Below, in pieces: positions 803 through 13,050 of a stretch of 20,654 bases of DNA. Made by a program: the position numbers and the translations under genes. Numbering within the stretch: the stretch's first letter is position 1; each line of letters begins with the position of its first letter. The stretch covers positions 1-20,654 of the IMG/VR virus record IMGVR_UViG_3300042465_002431; one strand, 5' to 3'. Below the pieces are notes generated by a model. That model ran no database searches and had not been told where the DNA came from. It saw only the letters and a program-made list of their open reading frames with translations. The stretch is from a virus.

Positions 803-2626
803 TTAGCACTCTCCATATGATTTACCTACACCCGATTCACAACTAAGCGGAAGTGTCTGCGCCCATGCAGGTCTAGTTTTCATGCACTCTTCCACATACT
901 GTTGAGCCTCTAGGACTTCTTCTTTTGGTGCGAGACAAGCTACCGCATCATGCACCGTCAACACTACCTTGTATCGTTTACCGATAAGTAGCATCTGCTC
1001 TGCAATAACGCATCTTGCAACTGCTTGGCATAAGTTCTCTACAACCTTGCCACCATAAATTTTAACTGCACCCTTGCGGGTTTTGTATTGATACTGCACT
1101 TTACCCTCAGTATCATATACCCTTTCAAGACCATCATACCTTTGCCATAGACCACTTGGCAATAGAAACCCACCCTCAATCGGATCAAACTTAACTGCAT
1201 CGACCGCACCAAATGTTGAAGCTTTCTTGTCGACTATTGCTTCGACACACTTTTGTGCTTGCTTCCACAGTTCAGGTATTTTGTCATAAGTTTTTCGGTA
1301 GACTTGGATAATACGGTTTGCTTCATCTGCTTCAATTTCCACACCGAAAGTCTTGAGTTGGACTTGGAATTTCTGCGCCCCCATGCCATAACCAGCGCCG
1401 AGAATTGTCGTCTTGCCGACGAAGCGTTCGTCCTTCGATATTTTTTCCACATCCTTGCCATATATAGCCGATGCCATGATCTTGTATACATCTTCACCCT
1501 TATCAAAAGCGTCTACTAAATCACTCTGCCCCGATAACCAAGCAACGGTGCGAGCCTCAATCTGTGACGAGTCGCAGTCAATCATCATGTACCCATCAGG
1601 CGCACGTATAGACTTCTTTAGCTTGCCTGCGTTGTTACCCCGACTGGGTAGGTTCTGCAAGTTAATCTTGTCATCGCCACCCCACCGACCAGTATGCGCC
1701 GCATAGTATTTAATAGGCACGGGCAACAAGCCACGGGTAGAGATGTCGATAAACCTCTGCGTTCTCGTCTCCTCCAAAGTTGTTTTGTTACCTAGCCTTG
1801 CGGACACCAGAGCCTGTACACGTGGATCAGTATGCTCTAACAAAGCCTTGAACTCCTCGTCGGTCTTGGCAAATGCCCATGCTTCCTTACCTGTCCTAGC
1901 ACTAATCTTGGTAGGAGGCACGACACCCAAAGCCTTTAGTAACTCAGCAAACCGATCACTACTCATCAGGTCGTCAATGTCAGCCTGTGCGGAATCAAGC
2001 AGTTTAGCCTTGAGGTTCTTGACGTTCTCCAAGTGTTCTTCCAACATAGTCTTATCTAAGACTAACGACGGTTGTATAAACATCTTTAGCGTTGTATCTA
2101 TAACCTTCAACTCCTTTGTTGGGAAAGTTTTTGCTAGTATCTTAAAAATATCGTAGGTTATTGCCACGTCGTTGATACAGTACTTGCCATACAGGTCTAG
2201 GTCTACATCGTAGAAGTCTGTGCGCCGTTTACCCTCGGCACGAATGACCTCATCTCCCTTTGCCCCAACTTGATAGCGTTCAGCCAAAACCTTGAGACTG
2301 CCACCCGCATCTACTCCATGGATAGCACGAGCCATACACAAGGTATCAAGATAGCCTTTTGGTTTAATACCAAAGTGCCAATTCAGAATTGCCCCATCGA
2401 ACTGCATGTTGTGTGCCAAAGCCAAAGCGTTGTCCCAATCAAACTTCTTTAGGAAAGCACGAGTATCAGCTTGGGTCCCACTAAACCATTCAGGTTGTTC
2501 GTTATCTACCGCAACGGCAACACCAATCACTTCGAATCGGTCGTCACGAATGTACTCCTCGGTCGTCAGCTTAGTTAAGCTAAACGCTTTGTCGTAGTAG
2601 GTCTCAAAGTCTAGGGTAATAATCAT
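803..2626 (-). CDS. DNA polymerase I-type (family A) replicative polymerase with 3'-5' exonuclease
   Basis: This 607-aa protein copies the phage genome. The N-terminal DEDDy proofreading domain is intact: Exo I DFET (D6, E8), Exo II HNMQFDG (D77) and Exo III YCIND (Y149, D153). The polymerase domain has TGRW (312-315), motif A DSSQIEAR (D352, E357), motif B R401-FVG-K405-TTILGAGYG and motif C VHDA (H559, D560). There is no 5'-3' exonuclease domain, as usual for phage family A enzymes. Two positions stand out. Leu409 aligns with E. coli Phe762, a residue whose Phe/Tyr/Leu state has been linked to phage lifestyle in virioplankton surveys. Ala561 replaces the usual Glu of HDE. The start ATG overlaps the upstream stop (ATGA), so translation is probably coupled. 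No helicase or primase was recognised in this window. Confidence 0.95.
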   Translation of the reverse strand: MIITLDFETYYDKAFSLTKLTTEEYIRDDRFEVIGVAVAVDNEQPEWFSGTQADTRAFLKKFDWDNALALAHNMQFDGAILNWHFGIKPKGYLDTLCMARAIHGVDAGGSLKVLAERYQVGAKGDEVIRAEGKRRTDFYDVDLDLYGKYCINDVAITYDIFKILAKTFPTKELKVIDTTLKMFIQPSLVLDKTMLEEHLENVKNLKAKLLDSAQADIDDLMSSDRFAELLKALGVVPPTKISARTGKEAWAFAKTDEEFKALLEHTDPRVQALVSARLGNKTTLEETRTQRFIDISTRGLLPVPIKYYAAHTGRWGGDDKINLQNLPSRGNNAGKLKKSIRAPDGYMMIDCDSSQIEARTVAWLSGQSDLVDAFDKGEDVYKIMASAIYGKDVEKISKDERFVGKTTILGAGYGMGAQKFQVQLKTFGVEIEADEANRIIQVYRKTYDKIPELWKQAQKCVEAIVDKKASTFGAVDAVKFDPIEGGFLLPSGLWQRYDGLERVYDTEGKVQYQYKTRKGAVKIYGGKVVENLCQAVARCVIAEQMLLIGKRYKVVLTVHDAVACLAPKEEVLEAQQYVEECMKTRPAWAQTLPLSCESGVGKSYGEC

Positions 2627-4455: not shown

Positions 4456-4805
4456 TTGAATAACTGTTCGATCTTGGACTCGAGATATTGGATAACCGCA
4501 ACGTTACCCCTACTCTTAACCTCTAACTCGTGGTATGCCTGTTTCCAATACATAGCCAAGCGTTGCATCTCAGCCATGTCTGTCTCTAACCGCTTAATCG
4601 TATCTGTTGGTTTAATATGCACACGTTTGGCTTTAGTTGATTTATTAACAGGTGTTAACTTTTTCTTCGAGTTTGTCTTAATGTAATTGCGGATTGCATA
4701 CACTTGGCTACTTGATAGCCCTGTCTTTTCACAAATCTCCTTAACGGATATATTTTTATTTGCATCCATCAACGCTTTTACTGTGTTTACTTTTGTATTT
4801 TTCAT
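4452..4805 (-). CDS. HTH protein with C-terminal helical tail
   Basis: The 117-aa product has an N-terminal helix-turn-helix (ISVKEICEKTGLSSSQVYAI, 19-38), a basic linker (KKKLTPVNKSTKAKRVHIKP), and a helical tail (65-117) likely to dimerise. It may be a DNA-binding regulator or a small-terminase-like HTH protein. The start ATG follows an AAGAAAGAG site. Codons 50-54 coincide with a perfect copy of the palindrome TTAACAGGTGTTAA (4645-4658) that recurs ahead of other minus-strand genes. That makes this protein one candidate binder or self-regulator, which is an inference. It begins a run of ATGA-coupled genes that reaches the polymerase. Confidence 0.7.
   Translation of the reverse strand: MKNTKVNTVKALMDANKNISVKEICEKTGLSSSQVYAIRNYIKTNSKKKLTPVNKSTKAKRVHIKPTDTIKRLETDMAEMQRLAMYWKQAYHELEVKSRGNVAVIQYLESKIEQLFK
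4645..4658 (+). promoter_or_regulatory. Palindrome TTAACAGGTGTTAA (copy inside HTH gene)
   Basis: This is a 14-bp perfect inverted repeat with a two-base centre, flanked by a TTTA tract as in the other copies. It lies in the coding region of the HTH gene and faces the other way from the gene-leading copies. It may be an operator or a chance match; the perfect symmetry favours a site. Confidence 0.4.
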
Positions 4806-6602: not shown

Positions 6603-7472
6603 TTAAAACATACTTAGAATTTCATCAACCTTGGATTTCACATCCAACCGCAAGCCATCGTCTTCACGTAACTCACCGGCAGAGACTCCCGAGAGCACGC
6701 TCTCCAATTTCTTTCTACATGTCTCCAACTTAGGGTCATTGGTTACGTTCAACTTAGTAAGCAGATCACACAACTGCACCGCATTACCCACCAATGAATC
6801 TCTGAACACAGGGGTAAACACTTCTGTTCCATCTTTCAACACCCTCGGCGTAGGAAGAGAAGTAAGGCGTTCACTCATGTTTGACAAGCACTCATGCAAT
6901 CTTGTCCATGCATCTGCCATCGCATCGTTCAACTTCGCTTCGTAGAACTTCTCGTATTGCTCTTTCAAGTCTGCCTTGTAAGTCTCACCCACATCAACTC
7001 GGAAGTCACCACCATCAGGCACAGGCAAGAACACATACTTGAACTTGAACTTACTAGCCAACTCACTTGCATCAGGATAGTCGGCTGCGTCAAAAAGATC
7101 GCTCAACTGAAACGCACTTGCTGACACCAATGTCGGATACTCGTCAATGAACTCTCTGACCGATTCTTCGAACTGCATCTGGTAATCACCCAACGTAGCT
7201 TTGTAGTCAAAGAAGTTTGCCATTGGCAACAACCTGCTACCACCATCCGACCAAGGTAAAGTCTGCTGATAATGCCACGCACGAATTGCGTTCACCAACT
7301 TCGTCAAATCGTCGAGCTTTTGCGTTCCCGCCAATAACTTTTTGTGATAGTTTCCTGCTCTCGCATGCGTTCCTTTGCTTGCGTCAATCTCCTCGGATAC
7401 TTTCTTGTCCATCTTACGACCTGTCCACACCGAAATGTTTAGGTCAATCAACATCGAACTATTCTGAATCAT
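6603..7472 (-). CDS. DUF3150-like protein of the AAA/VWA module
   Basis: The chosen start is the ATG at 7472 (MIQNSSMLIDLN), which has AAGGAGAG at the right distance; an upstream in-frame start at 7493 falls inside the palindrome and has no ribosome binding site. The 289-aa product opens with DLNISVWTGRK, which resembles the N-terminal signature (LNxSxWTGRKK) I associate with DUF3150. The rest is long charged helices (TYKADLKEQYEKFYEAKLND, and others) ending KVDEILSMF. In phages and integrative elements DUF3150 proteins lie beside CobS/MoxR-type AAA+ ATPases and VWA proteins, exactly as here, so it is probably their partner or adaptor. Biochemical role unknown. It has its own copy of the palindrome-plus-AAGGAG leader. 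Confidence 0.75.
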   Translation of the reverse strand: MIQNSSMLIDLNISVWTGRKMDKKVSEEIDASKGTHARAGNYHKKLLAGTQKLDDLTKLVNAIRAWHYQQTLPWSDGGSRLLPMANFFDYKATLGDYQMQFEESVREFIDEYPTLVSASAFQLSDLFDAADYPDASELASKFKFKYVFLPVPDGGDFRVDVGETYKADLKEQYEKFYEAKLNDAMADAWTRLHECLSNMSERLTSLPTPRVLKDGTEVFTPVFRDSLVGNAVQLCDLLTKLNVTNDPKLETCRKKLESVLSGVSAGELREDDGLRLDVKSKVDEILSMF

Positions 7473-7486
7473 TTGCACTCTCCTTA

Positions 7487-7500
7487 TGAACATCTGTTAA
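7487..7500 (-). promoter_or_regulatory. Palindrome copy ahead of the DUF3150-like gene
   Basis: On the minus strand it reads TTAACAGATGTTCA, preceded by the constant TTTA and followed by TAAGGAGAG. The gap to the ATG is 14 bases. One base breaks the symmetry. Confidence 0.6.
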
Positions 7501-7504
7501 TAAA

Positions 7505-8716
7505 TTACTGCACACGAACACTCTTACCAACGGGGCTTGTGATGTCCGTTGTAATACCCCATAGCGTTGGGCAATCCCACTTGCCCCACTCGTTTACATA
7601 GCCGTCGGTCAATACCACCGCACACTCGGGTTTGAGTTTATGGTCTTTGATATAGCGAGGAATACATCTTGGGTCTGTGCCACCACCGCCCTTGGGTTTA
7701 GTCGATGACAACAGATTGTCTAGCTGGTCTTGCTCATACTTCTCATGCTGACAAACATCTGTATCCCAATACAGAAGATCAATACCCTCGGGCTTAACTG
7801 TGTCGCAAATCTTTCTGACCTCGCCCAAGAACTGACCGATCTCCTCAGTCCCAATCGAGCCTGACATATCAATCGCAACCACAATGCGACCCACCGACTC
7901 ACCGATCAACGACGGCATATAAACATCTTGGTCAATCCACCTACGATTAGGTCTGCGCCATGTCGATTCATCCTTATCCATACAGAACGAATTAACGAAC
8001 TCACGCATAGCCTCTCGCCAATCAACCTTCGCTTCGAGTGCATCGGTTACTTCTCGTGGAACATTACCTTTCATCTTGCCCGCAAGAATCGCACCTTGAC
8101 GCAACGCTTGGTCAATATCTTTGGCAAGGGCTTCCTTCTCCTTTGCATCCATCTCCTTCGCACCTTCCCAATCATGCTCATCAAGTCCTTCCATTCCCTC
8201 ACCATTACCCTCTTGGTCTACGGGAACATCTTTGCCTGCTTGATCGCCAACTGTCTTGACATGCACCGACCCTTGCTTGGCTTGCTTCATCAAGTCATTG
8301 AACACCTGTTGAGAATCCATACCCCGATACTTAGGATCGAGCAAACCTTCTTTGGGTAATGCCACCTCTTGCCCTGACGGATCGGAGTCCACGATCATTT
8401 GGTTAATCACATAGTCACATGCCATGTTTGCCATCTGTGCATGCTTGTCGTAAAGATGTTTCCACATAGTCGTATGCCGAAAGGCCTTGTGCAAATTCTC
8501 ATGCAAGATCACACCCTTGACATTTGATTCACTCAGCTTGTCGATAAACGCACGACCATACATTACATCTCGACCATTGGTGCATGCCGTTGGCACATCA
8601 TCTTTGATCTCAACCTTACCGACCATGAACACACCCGAATACAAACAATACTTAGGGTTCTTCATCAGCGATACGTGAGCACGCTGAACTCTCTGCTCTG
8701 CCGTTAGCTTAGTCAT
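7505..8716 (-). CDS. VWA-domain protein with HExxH metallopeptidase-like domain (DUF2201 type)
   Basis: The start is the second of two adjacent ATGs (8716, MTKLTAEQR), chosen because AAGGAGAGTG then has the same spacing as in the neighbouring genes; product 403 aa. The N-terminal part has VILHENLHKAFRH with an HExxH zinc site (H72, E73, H76). A charged Gly/Glu/Asp linker follows (about 145-195). The C-terminal VWA domain has MIDAS residues DMSGSIG (D283, S285, S287), the GGGGTD threonine (T347) and LTDGY (D371). This is the architecture of DUF2201 proteins, which pair with MoxR-type ATPases; the VWA part binds partners through a metal. All key residues are present. Its start region overlaps the end of the SH3-like gene, and it lies between that gene and the DUF3150-like gene. 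Confidence 0.88.
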   Translation of the reverse strand: MTKLTAEQRVQRAHVSLMKNPKYCLYSGVFMVGKVEIKDDVPTACTNGRDVMYGRAFIDKLSESNVKGVILHENLHKAFRHTTMWKHLYDKHAQMANMACDYVINQMIVDSDPSGQEVALPKEGLLDPKYRGMDSQQVFNDLMKQAKQGSVHVKTVGDQAGKDVPVDQEGNGEGMEGLDEHDWEGAKEMDAKEKEALAKDIDQALRQGAILAGKMKGNVPREVTDALEAKVDWREAMREFVNSFCMDKDESTWRRPNRRWIDQDVYMPSLIGESVGRIVVAIDMSGSIGTEEIGQFLGEVRKICDTVKPEGIDLLYWDTDVCQHEKYEQDQLDNLLSSTKPKGGGGTDPRCIPRYIKDHKLKPECAVVLTDGYVNEWGKWDCPTLWGITTDITSPVGKSVRVQ

Positions 8717-8921
8717 CATCACTCTCCTTGTTAACATCTGTTAATAATTTATGGAACGCAGGGTCAATCTTGGTTACTCTTGTTTCTTGTGTAGCGTTGG
8801 CAAAACTTCTGCCTTTGCCTTTGAACTTAATCAAGTGAACTCCTGCCGTAAAGTCGGTAACTGTTACTTGCCCGACCTCTCCATCCACCAATACCCAATC
8901 ACCAACTTTTAGAATAGCCAT
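8709..8921 (-). CDS. Small SH3/KOW-like beta-barrel protein, 70 aa
   Basis: The chosen start is the ATG at 8921 (MAILKVGDWVLVDGEVGQVT), 13 bases inside the end of the AAA gene. A TTG at 8939 is possible but its AAGGA would touch the start codon. The alternating hydrophobic pattern with glycine turns (VGDWVLVDGEVGQVTVTDF, then GVHLIKF) resembles a small SH3 or KOW-like barrel, a nucleic-acid or protein-binding fold. It ends in an acidic tail (NKESDDD). Its last codons contain a palindrome copy and the ribosome binding site of the VWA gene. It is inserted between ATPase and VWA genes, so a role in that module is plausible. Confidence 0.7.
   Translation of the reverse strand: MAILKVGDWVLVDGEVGQVTVTDFTAGVHLIKFKGKGRSFANATQETRVTKIDPAFHKLLTDVNKESDDD
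8731..8744 (-). promoter_or_regulatory. Palindrome copy ahead of the VWA gene
   Basis: On the minus strand it reads TTAACAGATGTTAA, a perfect inverted repeat, followed directly by CAAGGAGAG and, 14 bases on, the VWA start. It lies within the last codons of the SH3-like gene, so here the element is kept inside a coding region. Confidence 0.6.
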
Positions 8922-9982
8922 TGGTTCTTCAATGCCCAATCCTTGAAGTCGCTATTCATTACGCAGAACGATTGCTTGTTGGACTTCATCACACTCGTTG
9001 CGAACAATGCTTGCCACTCCATGTCCATACGCTTGCTGTATGTAAGCCACTTGCTCAGAGTATCTTTCTCCACCCGAGCGATAGCCGAGAACACCAAGAT
9101 ACATTTAGCCACCGTATCATCAGGCAACTTTGCACTCGATGGATTAGAGATCACGCTCTCCCATGTCGGCAACTTGTCCACCACAGTAAAGAACGCTTGC
9201 ATATCCCGACTCGCCGACTCACCGATAGTGCCTGTCAATAGACTGATCGTTAGTGCATCACCCAACTCCGCCCTCTTCTTGGCAATGTGACTCGCCTTCT
9301 CCAAAGATCTTGGAGTAACCACCGCACCCATACCAGCACGCGTTGGATTAAAGATATACGGATTGTCTTTCTGACTGCCATCGGTATAACTCGATAGCGC
9401 ATGGGGGAACTGCTTAACCCAAGCCACCACCTCGGGGGCAATATCATTCTTCAATGCCCACTCAATCCACTCATCAGCATCGGGCTTGCGAACTGTTACA
9501 AGGGCTATCCTGTTTCGTGCGTGGGCTTCCAACATGTCCCCGACCCCGTCGCTTAGTAGATTAGTTGTCCCAAACACAATCGAACCCTTCGGGGCATAGT
9601 TATCACCAATCCTGCCCTCGAGCATCAGCGTAAGCAATACATTCTTCACCGCCTTCATCGCCTTACCGATCTCATCAAGCATGATGATTACAGGCTTATC
9701 CGAATGGAACTTGAACCTCGCATTGGGGGCAAACTTAGTCACCTTCAAATCTTCACCCGCTTGAACTGTATAGGGCAACGCAAAGTCACCCAAGTCCAAC
9801 AAGGTGCAATCAATGTAGGCAATCTCGTAATCGGGATACCTTTGTGCCAACACCTTTAGCATTGAACTCTTACCAATTCCTGGCTCACCCTGCCCAATGA
9901 TGGTTACATCATTACCCACAGTCCCAATGCCATGAGCGAACTCTTGCAACGAAACTGACTGACCAAAATTTATAACTGACAT
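8909..9982 (-). CDS. MoxR/CobS-type AAA+ ATPase
   Basis: The start is the ATG at 9982 (MSVINFGQSVSLQEF) behind AAGGAGAG; longer in-frame starts lie in the leader and lack a ribosome binding site. The 357-aa product has Walker A GEPGIGKSS (32-40), Walker B VIIMLDE (98-104), a sensor-1 Asn in FGTTN (N141), and an Arg-finger-like HARNR (154-158). The order and the VWA and DUF3150-like neighbours indicate a MoxR/CobS-type ATPase. Such ATPases remodel or load partners together with a VWA protein; in CobNST the pair drives metal insertion. The phage target is unknown. It is the first gene behind a near-perfect sigma70 promoter, with a palindrome copy in its leader. Confidence 0.9.
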   Translation of the reverse strand: MSVINFGQSVSLQEFAHGIGTVGNDVTIIGQGEPGIGKSSMLKVLAQRYPDYEIAYIDCTLLDLGDFALPYTVQAGEDLKVTKFAPNARFKFHSDKPVIIMLDEIGKAMKAVKNVLLTLMLEGRIGDNYAPKGSIVFGTTNLLSDGVGDMLEAHARNRIALVTVRKPDADEWIEWALKNDIAPEVVAWVKQFPHALSSYTDGSQKDNPYIFNPTRAGMGAVVTPRSLEKASHIAKKRAELGDALTISLLTGTIGESASRDMQAFFTVVDKLPTWESVISNPSSAKLPDDTVAKCILVFSAIARVEKDTLSKWLTYSKRMDMEWQALFATSVMKSNKQSFCVMNSDFKDWALKNQWLF

Positions 9983-9985
9983 ACG

Positions 9986-10020
9986 CACTCTCCTTTTATA
10001 AACAACTGTTAATAAATCAC
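9986..10020 (-). repeat. 35-bp leader repeat, copy 1
   Basis: This 35-base stretch, containing the palindrome and the AAGGAGAGTG ribosome binding site, is identical to 11040-11074. It leads the AAA ATPase gene. Confidence 0.85.
9999..10012 (-). promoter_or_regulatory. Palindrome copy in the AAA ATPase leader
   Basis: On the minus strand it reads TTAACAGTTGTTTA. With flanks TTTA and TAAA the symmetry extends to about 22 bases with one mismatch pair. It lies some 28-41 bases downstream of the predicted RNA start and 16 bases ahead of the ATG, so it should be in the transcript as well as in the DNA. Confidence 0.6.
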
Positions 10021-10046
10021 TCTTACTTCTCACACTTTATAGAACC

Positions 10047-10095: not shown

Positions 10096-11037
10096 TCAAA
10101 CCACCTTCGTCATTGGCTTACCCGCTTCAACCTCAATCTTCTTTGTGGTATCGGTAGCGTTATGCACCATGGTGTAGATAGTCGATTGCAAGGTTTCCCA
10201 CTTGAACTTCACGTCATACAACTTCTTTATCCGATTGTTACCCACATCACCAAGGTTCACTTGCTTTGCCAAGCGACTTTCCTCGGCACGATCAGGCTCA
10301 TCGGTCATCGCTAGATAAACACGCATCCACCCATCATCTCCACAAGTTTGTAGGTACTCGTAGGCTTGCTTTGGATTGACCCTATCAATAGTGCCTGTCC
10401 ACCGATACTGAACCACCCCATCAGGCAACCCATAATCCACTTTCAGCGTAGCCCAACTATGTTCAAGTCTTTGTGTGTAGGTAGCGAACTGTTCTCGGGT
10501 TTCGTGCATGACCCAACCATCAGTCAATTTGTTGAACGATTTTGCCCACTCGATGAACGGCTTGATTTTCTCCCGAGCATCTTTCGCCTTAGTCCGATCG
10601 ATCACCACCTTCTCAATCACAATGGGTTTCTCGGGTTTGTAATTCCCATCTGCACCCATGACCAACCGCAACTCCCCATCTGTGGGTATCGGATAAGCCT
10701 CATCTACGCTATGCCCTTTGGGGTAAACCCACAACTTGTTGTATTTCTTGCATATATAGAACGGGCTATAACAACTCATAAAGTCTGCCGTTGTCGGGGT
10801 AGCCCACGAGTTAATCCGCAACCCAATCGAACCATCGGGGTAATACATCACTACATCGGTCTCATATAAATGACACGCATAAACTTCTTGGTATGCGTCA
10901 TCAACTGTAACCATACGCTTCTCGATTGTTTCCCATGTCCGATACCGCTTACCAATCGGTCTAATATCCTCGGCACGACCACGAATCCTCTTGGTGTTTT
11001 CCCACTTCGCTTTGAAATGCTCATAACATCTACTCAT
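10096..11037 (-). CDS. Unknown phage protein, 313 aa
   Basis: The start is the ATG at 11037 (MSRCYEHFKAKWENTKRIRG) behind AAGGAGAG; the GTG three bases upstream would crowd the site. The protein is soluble, mixed alpha/beta and rich in Trp and Tyr. Features include a basic N-terminus, a beta segment (ETDVVMYYPDGSIGLRINSW), VIEKVVIDRTKAKDAREKIK, a helical centre (FIEWAKSFNKL, then ETREQFATYTQRLEH), and a C-terminus rich in Thr, Lys and Val. I recognise no family and no catalytic motif. Its leader is base-for-base the same as that of the AAA gene, which suggests the two are controlled together. Confidence 0.8.
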   Translation of the reverse strand: MSRCYEHFKAKWENTKRIRGRAEDIRPIGKRYRTWETIEKRMVTVDDAYQEVYACHLYETDVVMYYPDGSIGLRINSWATPTTADFMSCYSPFYICKKYNKLWVYPKGHSVDEAYPIPTDGELRLVMGADGNYKPEKPIVIEKVVIDRTKAKDAREKIKPFIEWAKSFNKLTDGWVMHETREQFATYTQRLEHSWATLKVDYGLPDGVVQYRWTGTIDRVNPKQAYEYLQTCGDDGWMRVYLAMTDEPDRAEESRLAKQVNLGDVGNNRIKKLYDVKFKWETLQSTIYTMVHNATDTTKKIEVEAGKPMTKVV

Positions 11038-11459: not shown

Positions 11460-11670
11460 TTGGGAATCCTTTTAGCCAATCAACCAGCGCAATCGTCAGC
11501 CAAACTGAAAAGCCAACACCCAAGATGACTGCACCCAAACCACGCACAATCCGCCAACCCCGTTCATTTTCGGTTTCACACCGCCAAATCGGGGTAGCGT
11601 AGTCAGCATCTTTAAATGCCTCACTCGTTGAGCGGTATGTTTTACCCATTCCCTTGTTTCTTGTGCTCAC
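11452..11670 (-). CDS. Single-span membrane protein, 72 aa
   Basis: The preferred start is a GTG at 11670, because it overlaps the TGA of the preceding small gene (GTGA). An ATG at 11682 (within the preceding gene) and one at 11649 are alternatives. The N-terminal two thirds are soluble (TYRSTSEAFKDADYATPIWR), and residues 45-65 form a hydrophobic span (LGAVILGVGFSVWLTIALVD), followed by WLKGFPNG. With positive residues before the span, the N-terminus may stay in the cytoplasm. It is the third of three consecutive small membrane proteins. A lysis or superinfection role is possible but unproven. Confidence 0.65.
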   Translation of the reverse strand: MSTRNKGMGKTYRSTSEAFKDADYATPIWRCETENERGWRIVRGLGAVILGVGFSVWLTIALVDWLKGFPNG

Positions 11671-11747
11671 GATGCCCCCCATATCAGGTTAAGAAAAAAC
11701 GCAATGACCAACACAATCGGAAACCAATCCTCATCAAATATCTTCAT
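11667..11747 (-). CDS. Tiny membrane protein, 26 aa
   Basis: The ATG at 11747 overlaps the TGA of the 29-aa gene (ATGA), and its own TGA overlaps the next GTG. The 26-residue product is a short acidic head (MKIFDEDWF) followed by one hydrophobic span (PIVLVIAFFLNLIWGAS). The double start-stop overlap and the membrane-type composition, matching its neighbours, support a real mini-gene. Function unknown. Confidence 0.5.
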   Translation of the reverse strand: MKIFDEDWFPIVLVIAFFLNLIWGAS

Positions 11748-11833
11748 AATCCATACTCCAATTTAATTGACCAAAGAACCACGCAAACCGCTAAAACGAG
11801 CAGAAATACACCTGCTTGCAGATACACTTTCAT
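11744..11833 (-). CDS. Tiny membrane protein, 29 aa
   Basis: The ATG at 11833 follows an AAGGGGGG ribosome binding site and a perfect palindrome copy (11855-11868), the same leader layout as the larger minus-strand genes. The 29-residue product is almost entirely one hydrophobic span (YLQAGVFLLVLAVCVVLWSI) with a short tail. The regulatory leader is the best evidence that this very short frame is used. It leads a coupled run of three membrane proteins. Confidence 0.55.
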   Translation of the reverse strand: MKVYLQAGVFLLVLAVCVVLWSIKLEYGL

Positions 11834-12081
11834 TTCACTATCCCCCCTTTTTGATTAACACCTGTTAATAATTCCCTATCGAATATCGCTACATAATTGC
11901 TTTTATGCATCGGGACTACGCAAAACTTGCGGTCTTTGGCGATCTCATCACCACAACCTAGACACACTCGATAACCCAAATCCCACCGACCTGAAGCCAC
12001 ATCTTCACCGCACAACCTACAACAGGTTTTGGTGTGTTGGTTTTGGTTTACTTTGTCCAATGTTCCATGATCTTGTTCCAT
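11830..12081 (-). CDS. Zinc-ribbon-like small protein, 83 aa
   Basis: The ATG at 12081 has AAGGG seven bases upstream. Two CxxC knuckles, C21-RL-C24 (in CCRLCGED) and C40-LG-C43 (in YRVCLGCGDE), are spaced as in a small zinc ribbon. A strand-rich tail follows (VVPMHKSNYVAIFDRELLTG) and ends GVNQKGGIVK. Phage proteins of this size and pattern are usually annotated as hypothetical; nucleic-acid or protein binding is likely. The last codons overlap the palindrome copy that leads the 29-aa gene. The start lies inside the first TGTTCCA repeats, so its expression may be affected by whatever binds them. Confidence 0.75.
   Translation of the reverse strand: MEQDHGTLDKVNQNQHTKTCCRLCGEDVASGRWDLGYRVCLGCGDEIAKDRKFCVVPMHKSNYVAIFDRELLTGVNQKGGIVK
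11855..11868 (-). promoter_or_regulatory. Palindrome copy ahead of the small membrane genes
   Basis: It reads TTAACAGGTGTTAA on the minus strand, a perfect inverted repeat 21 bases ahead of the ATG at 11833, with AAGGGGGG between. It falls in the final codons of the zinc-ribbon gene. Confidence 0.55.
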
Positions 12082-12385
12082 AATATACCCTTTGTTCCAT
12101 AAACGAAATACAAGAAAAACACAATAACTTCAACGACTTGGCGCAATAAATTGCACTCTGTTCCATTGTTCCAGCGAATATATGAACCTGCCAAAGAGGA
12201 CAAGAAGGCAGAACTTCTTGAATTACTTTACTTTGTCAAGTAGAAACCTAACTCGCTCTCTTATATATATATATGGAACAATGGAACAAATAGAGAAAAC
12301 AACCCGCAAACCCTTTGCCCATATGAAAAAACCTTGTTCCAGTCGAATGGAACAATGCGGAACAAATGGAACAATGCTTGGAACA
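12061..12385. repeat. Array of twelve TGGAACA/TGTTCCA repeats
   Basis: Seven-base repeats occur at 12061, 12074, 12093, 12159, 12167 and 12335 as TGTTCCA, and at 12274, 12282, 12348, 12358 (first base C), 12367 and 12379 as TGGAACA. Five copies on the left read one way and six of the seven on the right read the other, so the block is roughly symmetric about 12220. Two pairs have an exact 8-base step. An alternating TA tract (12261-12274) touches the right half. The arrangement resembles iterons next to an unwinding element, or a multi-site operator. The first two copies lie in the zinc-ribbon gene's start codons. Confidence 0.75.
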
Positions 12386-12408: not shown

Positions 12409-12476
12409 TAAGTTTGCACAACTGCATCATCAGCATCATCATCTTCATCGGAAACTATCATCAAAAAACGGGCAAC

Positions 12477-12499
12477 AAAAAAACCCCGATTGCTCGGGG
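12477..12499 (-). terminator. Intrinsic terminator of the 170-aa gene
   Basis: On the minus strand a CCCCGA/TCGGGG stem with a GCAA tetraloop is followed by seven T residues. It lies about 20 bases after the TAA of the 12519-13031 gene. A weaker AACCC/GGGTT hairpin overlaps the stop codon. It should separate this gene from the downstream repeat array. Confidence 0.9.
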
Positions 12500-12518
12500 C
12501 TCGTAAAACCCTTTCGGG

Positions 12519-13031
12519 TTAGATTTTGATTTTTGCGGTTTTCTCAGCCTGAATTAAAAAGCCCATCACTTTGACTAGGTCAAAATCACACTCTTTAATT
12601 TTCCCGCCGTCTTCGATCAATTTTGTAATGCGATCAATAAAACCCTTTTTAGGGCTCTCTTTTTTCTCAGCAGGGAAAGCAAACTTTACTACCCTTTTGT
12701 AATAGGTCTCGATTGTTGATCGAGCATCTTTTTTAGCCTGATTAGCAATATCCCATTTATCAGGGTAAGAGTTATCAGCCGAGCAAGCCTCTTTATATGC
12801 TTTGCTATTCATACGGGGTAAATCAACGGCTAAAGCCTGAATATGCTTAGGCTTAACAATCGAATGGATTGCGTCAGCAATGAATTGAGCCTTAACCTCT
12901 TCTAATGCCTTTTCAGAGCCAAAAAACTCAGCAACATTTAAGCCCATTGTCTGTAATTCAGTCTCAGCCTTGTCACCTAGTTTTAATGCGGATTTTACTG
13001 AACTAATCATTTCTACATAATTTGCACTCAT
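12519..13031 (-). CDS. Unknown phage protein, 170 aa, first gene of the minus arm
   Basis: The start is the ATG at 13031 (MSANYVEMISSVKSALKLGD) with AAGGAG eight bases upstream; the frame stays open further but that part lies in the leader. The product is soluble and helical: acidic N-terminal helices (KAETELQTMGLNVAEFF, then KALEEVKAQFIADAIHSIV), a central polar part, and a basic segment (YYKRVVKFAFPAEKKESPKK) before a C-terminal helix. No known motif. It is a single-gene unit, with a palindrome copy in its leader and a strong terminator after its stop, and it sits at the arm divergence. That isolated position is typical of early or regulatory genes, which is only a contextual hint. Confidence 0.8.
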   Translation of the reverse strand: MSANYVEMISSVKSALKLGDKAETELQTMGLNVAEFFGSEKALEEVKAQFIADAIHSIVKPKHIQALAVDLPRMNSKAYKEACSADNSYPDKWDIANQAKKDARSTIETYYKRVVKFAFPAEKKESPKKGFIDRITKLIEDGGKIKECDFDLVKVMGFLIQAEKTAKIKI

Positions 13032-13050
13032 TGTAATTCTCCTTGATATA

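Follow-up and report, generated by a model that had tools for sequence, protein, structure and literature searches.

Among origins of replication at which a helicase itself serves as the initiator, those of the SaPIs, the PICIs and P4 are the closest described counterparts of the locus analysed here. Cch and the Rep protein of SaPIbov1 belong to the DUF927 helicase class (PMC7581432; PMC10061031). The SaPI Rep proteins are self-loading initiator helicases, the C-terminal domain of which binds the iterons, apparently as two hexamers (PMC7581432), and the PICI origins always comprise two sets of iterons around an AT-rich region (PMC6092414). In P4, the annotated type 1 repeat of the origin is TGTTCACC, which occurs in both orientations.

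The stretch of DNA analysed in this study (hereafter the window) is the 20,654-bp IMG/VR virus record IMGVR_UViG_3300042465_002431, a fragment that does not contain the primase-helicase gene. At 12061-12385 it carries an array of twelve heptamers, which we regard with reasonable confidence as the iteron-type replication origin of a lake phage, at which the PrimPol-DUF927 primase-helicase of the phage itself would act. The array is best read as a new variant of the helicase-initiated iteron origins known from SaPIs, PICIs and P4, occurring here in an ordinary-sized tailed phage.

As in the SaPIs and PICIs, two iteron sets flank an AT-rich stretch, and the helicase is a DUF927 protein with a C-terminal DNA-binding domain (predicted in the present case). 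However, the SaPI origin lies directly downstream of rep, whereas in contig G001, a longer relative, the array lies about 20 kb from the helicase gene. The present system also differs in that the replicon is a tailed phage of ordinary size with its own polymerase, in that the sites are 7-bp words placed as mirror images, including an inner tandem pair with an 8-bp step, and in that the helicase is fused to a primase-like N-terminus. P4 is similar in having short type 1 repeats both ways and a primase-helicase from the same replicon, and the word of one relative, G005 (GTGAACA, i.e., TGTTCAC), has seven of the eight bases of the P4 repeat. On the other hand, the word of the window, TGTTCCA when read on the opposite strand, does not match the type 1 repeat; P4 has a separate ori and crr; and the P4 alpha protein has Zn-ribbon, Toprim, D5_N and Pox_D5 domains, none of which was detected in the DUF927 protein here.

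The origins of iteron plasmids and lambda likewise have repeated initiator sites by an AT-rich tract, but their iterons are long and direct, whereas the words here are short, occur in both orientations and have no DnaA box nearby (the single TTWTNCACA match in the window is 10 kb off). A preliminary description of the window had suggested an iteron-type origin, and this is supported here with the correction that the array is two-sided and like those of SaPIs, PICIs and P4, not of the plasmid or lambda type. According to the literature, SV40 and papillomavirus origins also offer short sites to a self-loading hexameric helicase; however, that initiator is unrelated, and its DNA-binding domain is N-terminal instead of C-terminal.

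Architecture and setting of the array

Table 1. Features of the array and its surroundings (positions in the window).
Feature	Position	Strand	Remark
Family A DNA polymerase gene, leftward early arm	803..2626	-	
83-aa double-zinc-ribbon protein gene, left neighbour of array	11830..12081	-	
Left outer iterons, TGGAACA	12061, 12074, 12093 (12061..12099)	-	Relatives conserve -213/-200/-181
Left inner tandem pair, TGGAACAATGGAACA, 8-bp step	12159, 12167 (12159..12173)	-	Conserved at -115/-107
Central palindrome-like element, ACTTTACTTTGTCAAGT	12225..12241	.	Imperfect in window; TTWACANTGTWAA in several relatives
(TA)6 tract, candidate DNA-unwinding element	12262..12273	.	Abuts right inner pair; column conservation 0.83
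Right inner tandem pair, TGGAACAATGGAACA, 8-bp step	12274, 12282 (12274..12288)	+	Column conservation 0.99
Inverted iteron, 13 bp before right outer triple	12335..12341	-	Forms palindrome with 12348
Right outer iterons	12348, 12358 (CGGAACA), 12367, 12379 (12348..12385)	+	
Right-edge palindrome, TTATTAACACATGCTAATAA	12392..12411	.	Member of dispersed operator-like family
Terminator-like hairpin of leftward 171-aa gene	12502-12481	-	Insulates array
171-aa all-helical protein gene, right neighbour of array	12519..13034	-	Fold predicted

Eleven of the heptamers are exact copies of TGGAACA and one has a single mismatch; the five left sites are on the minus strand, while six of the seven right sites are on the plus strand and one is inverted (Table 1). 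In 500 dinucleotide shuffles the maximum was three exact copies per 325 bp, against the 11 observed, and no 7-mer of any kind exceeded five copies per 325 bp in the same shuffles. The features reported in the preliminary description, i.e., the number of copies and their opposed orientations, an abundance far above chance, an alternating TA tract and the 8-base tandem steps (found in two pairs), were all confirmed. A similar density of the word elsewhere in the genome had been named there as evidence against an origin, but outside the array only two single copies occur in the window (6825 and 8057), and the whole contigs of three long relatives contain no second cluster.

When positions are counted from the right inner pair (= 0), sites at -213, -200, (-190), -181, -115 and -107 face sites at 0, +8, +61 (inverted), +74, +84, +93 and (+105). 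All five left sites have a right partner no more than 1 bp from the mirrored position, with P = 0.0013 for random placement and P = 0.04 if the observed gaps are merely re-ordered. The TA tract was among the weakest stretches of the duplex in some genomes only, and not consistently. To the right of the array, at 12415-12475, most relatives have a conserved CATCATCATC...ACTATCATNAA stretch. Neither an Rfam search nor a DNA-level search against annotated phages returned a match.

The genes between 1 and 12.1 kb run leftward (DNA polymerase, a MoxR/VWA pair and small genes), and those from 13.5 kb run rightward (small and large terminase, portal and capsid-region genes). In close relatives the usual order is zinc-ribbon gene, array, 171-aa gene, TerS and TerL. 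The array does occupy a gap after a terminated gene, as described earlier, with a terminator-like stem beyond the leftward 171-aa gene; the overlap of the array with the start of the zinc-ribbon gene is true of the window, but in many relatives this start lies outside the array. Cumulative GC skew, which had been proposed as a check, was uninformative as an origin test, since its minimum was 1.3-1.7 kb from the array, at the switch in gene direction, and tracked the latter without marking the position of the array. The phage genome would be about 62 kb, given that the 64.8-kb contig G001 has overlapping ends and that relatives are of similar size. The polymerase of the window has weak homologues in HTVC027P and HTVC023P, annotated as DNA polymerase A/DNA polymerase. 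A scan of a genome collection for the host gave just three loose phage-like matches in MAGs.

Conservation of the layout and changes of the word

Leaving aside several pattern matches with the inner pair alone, which were counted as chance matches, the layout of the array recurs in about 25 contigs of related phages. Column conservation across these contigs was 0.99 at the inner sites, 0.83 in the TA tract and 0.47-0.57 in the spacers. Conservation of the word, another check proposed earlier, depends on distance: these contigs keep it, whereas distant relatives have exchanged most copies. In the same layout, TGAAACA was found in L029, L032, L033, L035 and L044, GTGAACA in L022 (= G005) and AGAATAA in L051 (= G020), while NGGAACA is retained in L028, L038 and L075; L059, L068 and L071 have mixed words (AGAACA and GGAACA types) and a less regular layout. 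Most of the distant relatives retain both the 8-bp inner pair and, ahead of the right triple, the inverted junction of 12-13 bp; the offset of the inverted iteron persists despite a different word. In the phages with TGAAACA and GTGAACA, the AT-rich tract is largely on the opposite side of the inner pair. A fixed layout together with an array-wide change of the word fits the sites of one protein with drifting (co-evolving) specificity. For several of the words there is just one near-complete genome, so that phylogeny and word are confounded.

The strict spacing would also fit a repressor or activator complex, and the array could then be mainly a transcriptional switch, namely an operator cluster for the leftward early promoter. 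As the gene ahead of it is terminated (12481-12502), the leftward early operon has to begin within the array or close by, and the TA tract could serve as the -10 element. However, no confident sigma-70 promoter was found inside the array, and at least five sites per side with two-fold symmetry are more than one promoter needs. The position of the AT tract on the other side in the TGAAACA and GTGAACA phages is hard to reconcile with a fixed promoter, and a separate family of dispersed palindromes (see below) looks like the operators of the early genes. A role mainly as a switch is accordingly quite improbable. The leftward early promoter is nonetheless probably located in the array region, so that its regulation may share the iterons and a dual role is possible.

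The primase-helicase as candidate initiator

A primase-helicase of 939-961 aa, related to the DUF927 protein of G001/G009, is encoded in all 11 longer array contigs that were tested. It matches the DNA primase/helicase families of PHROG, and DUF927 was detected in the protein of a near relative (1.3e-22). AlphaFold predicted a winged helix for the C-terminal 199 residues (pLDDT 81). The best PDB match of this domain in Foldseek was the SCCmec protein Cch (5dgk), a weak one (E 0.056), and the matches after it were mostly winged-helix DNA-binding domains; a comparison with predicted viral structures ranked DUF927 and phage replication proteins highest. At the sequence level, the primase-helicase had no match in the PDB.

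At a core identity of about 0.64, the winged helices were 0.62-0.75 identical in pairs of genomes with the same word, versus 0.43-0.46 in comparisons with the GAAACA genome G013. Of the 938 windows of an unbiased sliding-window comparison, that of the winged helix had the second rank and was not unique; the co-variation of winged helix and iteron word seen in these sequences is therefore only suggestive. GGAACA arrays also occur in three additional contigs whose winged helix is similar, which is consistent with such co-variation as a weak test.

Alternatively, the array could be an origin at which a different phage protein recognises the word and then recruits the helicase, i.e., a 76-aa Cro-like HTH protein, a 296-aa protein, the zinc ribbon or the 171-aa protein. 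The HTH protein is encoded beside the primase-helicase in 11 of 11 array genomes, but its recognition region (VSRxTVYSWFxG) is nearly invariant though the word changes, and no homologue of it was detected in Pseudomonas phage Rollin, with which the 296-aa protein is shared. In most relatives the array has the zinc-ribbon and 171-aa genes as its neighbours; however, arrays are present in G006, where the zinc ribbon is undetectable, and in G005, where the 171-aa protein is, and the latter is predicted to be all-helical, with no match and no known DNA-binding fold found. For these reasons the zinc ribbon and the 171-aa protein, both proposed earlier as binders, are unlikely to bind the array, and the 171-aa protein was rejected as a candidate. 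Recognition by any of these four proteins appears rather unlikely overall.

If the primase-helicase is the initiator, the course of initiation could be as follows. The origin would sit at the point of divergence between the leftward early (replication) arm and the rightward late arm, with the two iteron sets (YGGAACA) pointing outward from a centre of about 100 bp that holds the small palindrome and the TA tract. The word would be read by the C-terminal winged helix of the PrimPol-DUF927 protein, oligomers may form on both half-arrays, and the AT tract would then melt. The helicase could load as opposed rings and fire bidirectionally, and the same protein would prime the synthesis that the family A polymerase of the phage extends. 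For a phage group that is represented here solely by uncultured contigs, such a model predicts the replication origin and names the initiator; it would also extend helicase-initiated origins of the satellite type to phages of ordinary size.

More tentatively, these phages could be a widespread freshwater group with private origin "locks", in which a two-sided geometry stays fixed while the word is rewritten and tracked by the winged helix of the PrimPol-DUF927 protein; we consider this possible without favouring it. The series of words would be GGAACA, GAAACA, TGAACA, AGAATA and the TATGCAA of Rollin, each in nearly all copies of its array. If this were true, the origin of one phage would not be fired by its relatives. 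The natural series of word changes under one geometry offers a test bed for studying how the specificity of an initiator and that of a dozen dispersed sites shift together.

Rollin and other phages

Among annotated proteins, the primase-helicase has its closest homologue in Rollin (28% over 91%). Rollin and G001 have in common the primase-helicase, the 296-aa protein, an SNF2 helicase and the polymerase, while TerL, TerS, the portal, the 76-aa HTH protein and the 171-aa protein of G001 were undetected in Rollin by a homologue search whose length cut excluded the 68-aa zinc ribbon. Eight of the nine TATGCAA copies in Rollin fall at 260-680 (420 bp; null maximum 5), beside an AT tract at its own early/late divergence, in an orientation pattern different from that of the window. 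As a cultured relative of the replication module, Rollin makes the prediction testable. Several near-identical palindromes, AAAAGGTAGCAAGTTACTACCTTTT, surround the Rollin array (L280 1-500), and the Rollin record has open frames at 51.8-61.3 kb with zero annotated genes. No convincing array was found in Rhizobium phage RHph_TM3_14A, which has a remoter helicase homologue.

The array of Rollin, found without detectable packaging homologues, indicates that the array goes with the replication module and not with the packaging genes. This bears on a function as a packaging (pac/cos) or partition (parS) site, for which it could be said that the small terminase gene begins 1.2 kb rightward and that the P1-type parS has heptamers flanking a bend site too. 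However, ParA/ParB families were absent among the proteins scanned (a subset of the genes), and in long relatives the array is not at the contig end. Taken with the analogous array of Rollin, these results make a packaging or partition site highly improbable.

Clusters of other words (TGGCACA; CTAGGAAAA) were observed in 023Pt_psg01 (L085 ~11550-11770) and Pelagibacter phage HTVC023P (L086 ~10380-10480). Both isolates have a related terminase, upstream of which the clusters lie, and no homologue of the primase-helicase was detected in the stretches examined.

Other repeats and conserved genes

A trio of genes at 6603-10033, encoding a DUF3150-like protein, a DUF2201 VWA/metallopeptidase and a MoxR-like AAA ATPase, is conserved in most array-bearing relatives. 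Each genome also has its own dispersed palindrome, in 3-10 copies over the early arm. That of the window, TTAACA-NN-TGTTAA, is exact at 4645, 8731 and 11855 and nearly so at ~12392, ~13056 and ~13141; the others include TACTGTC-N-GACAGTA in G005, GCGACAT-N-ATGTCGC in G019 and GTTATCA-NN-TGATAAC in G016, and the copies in G002 span 24934-34436. These palindromes look like a drifting set of operators or stoperators. At a contig end of G002 (~29-400) there are seventeen CAGTTCC repeats, which are unrelated to the array.
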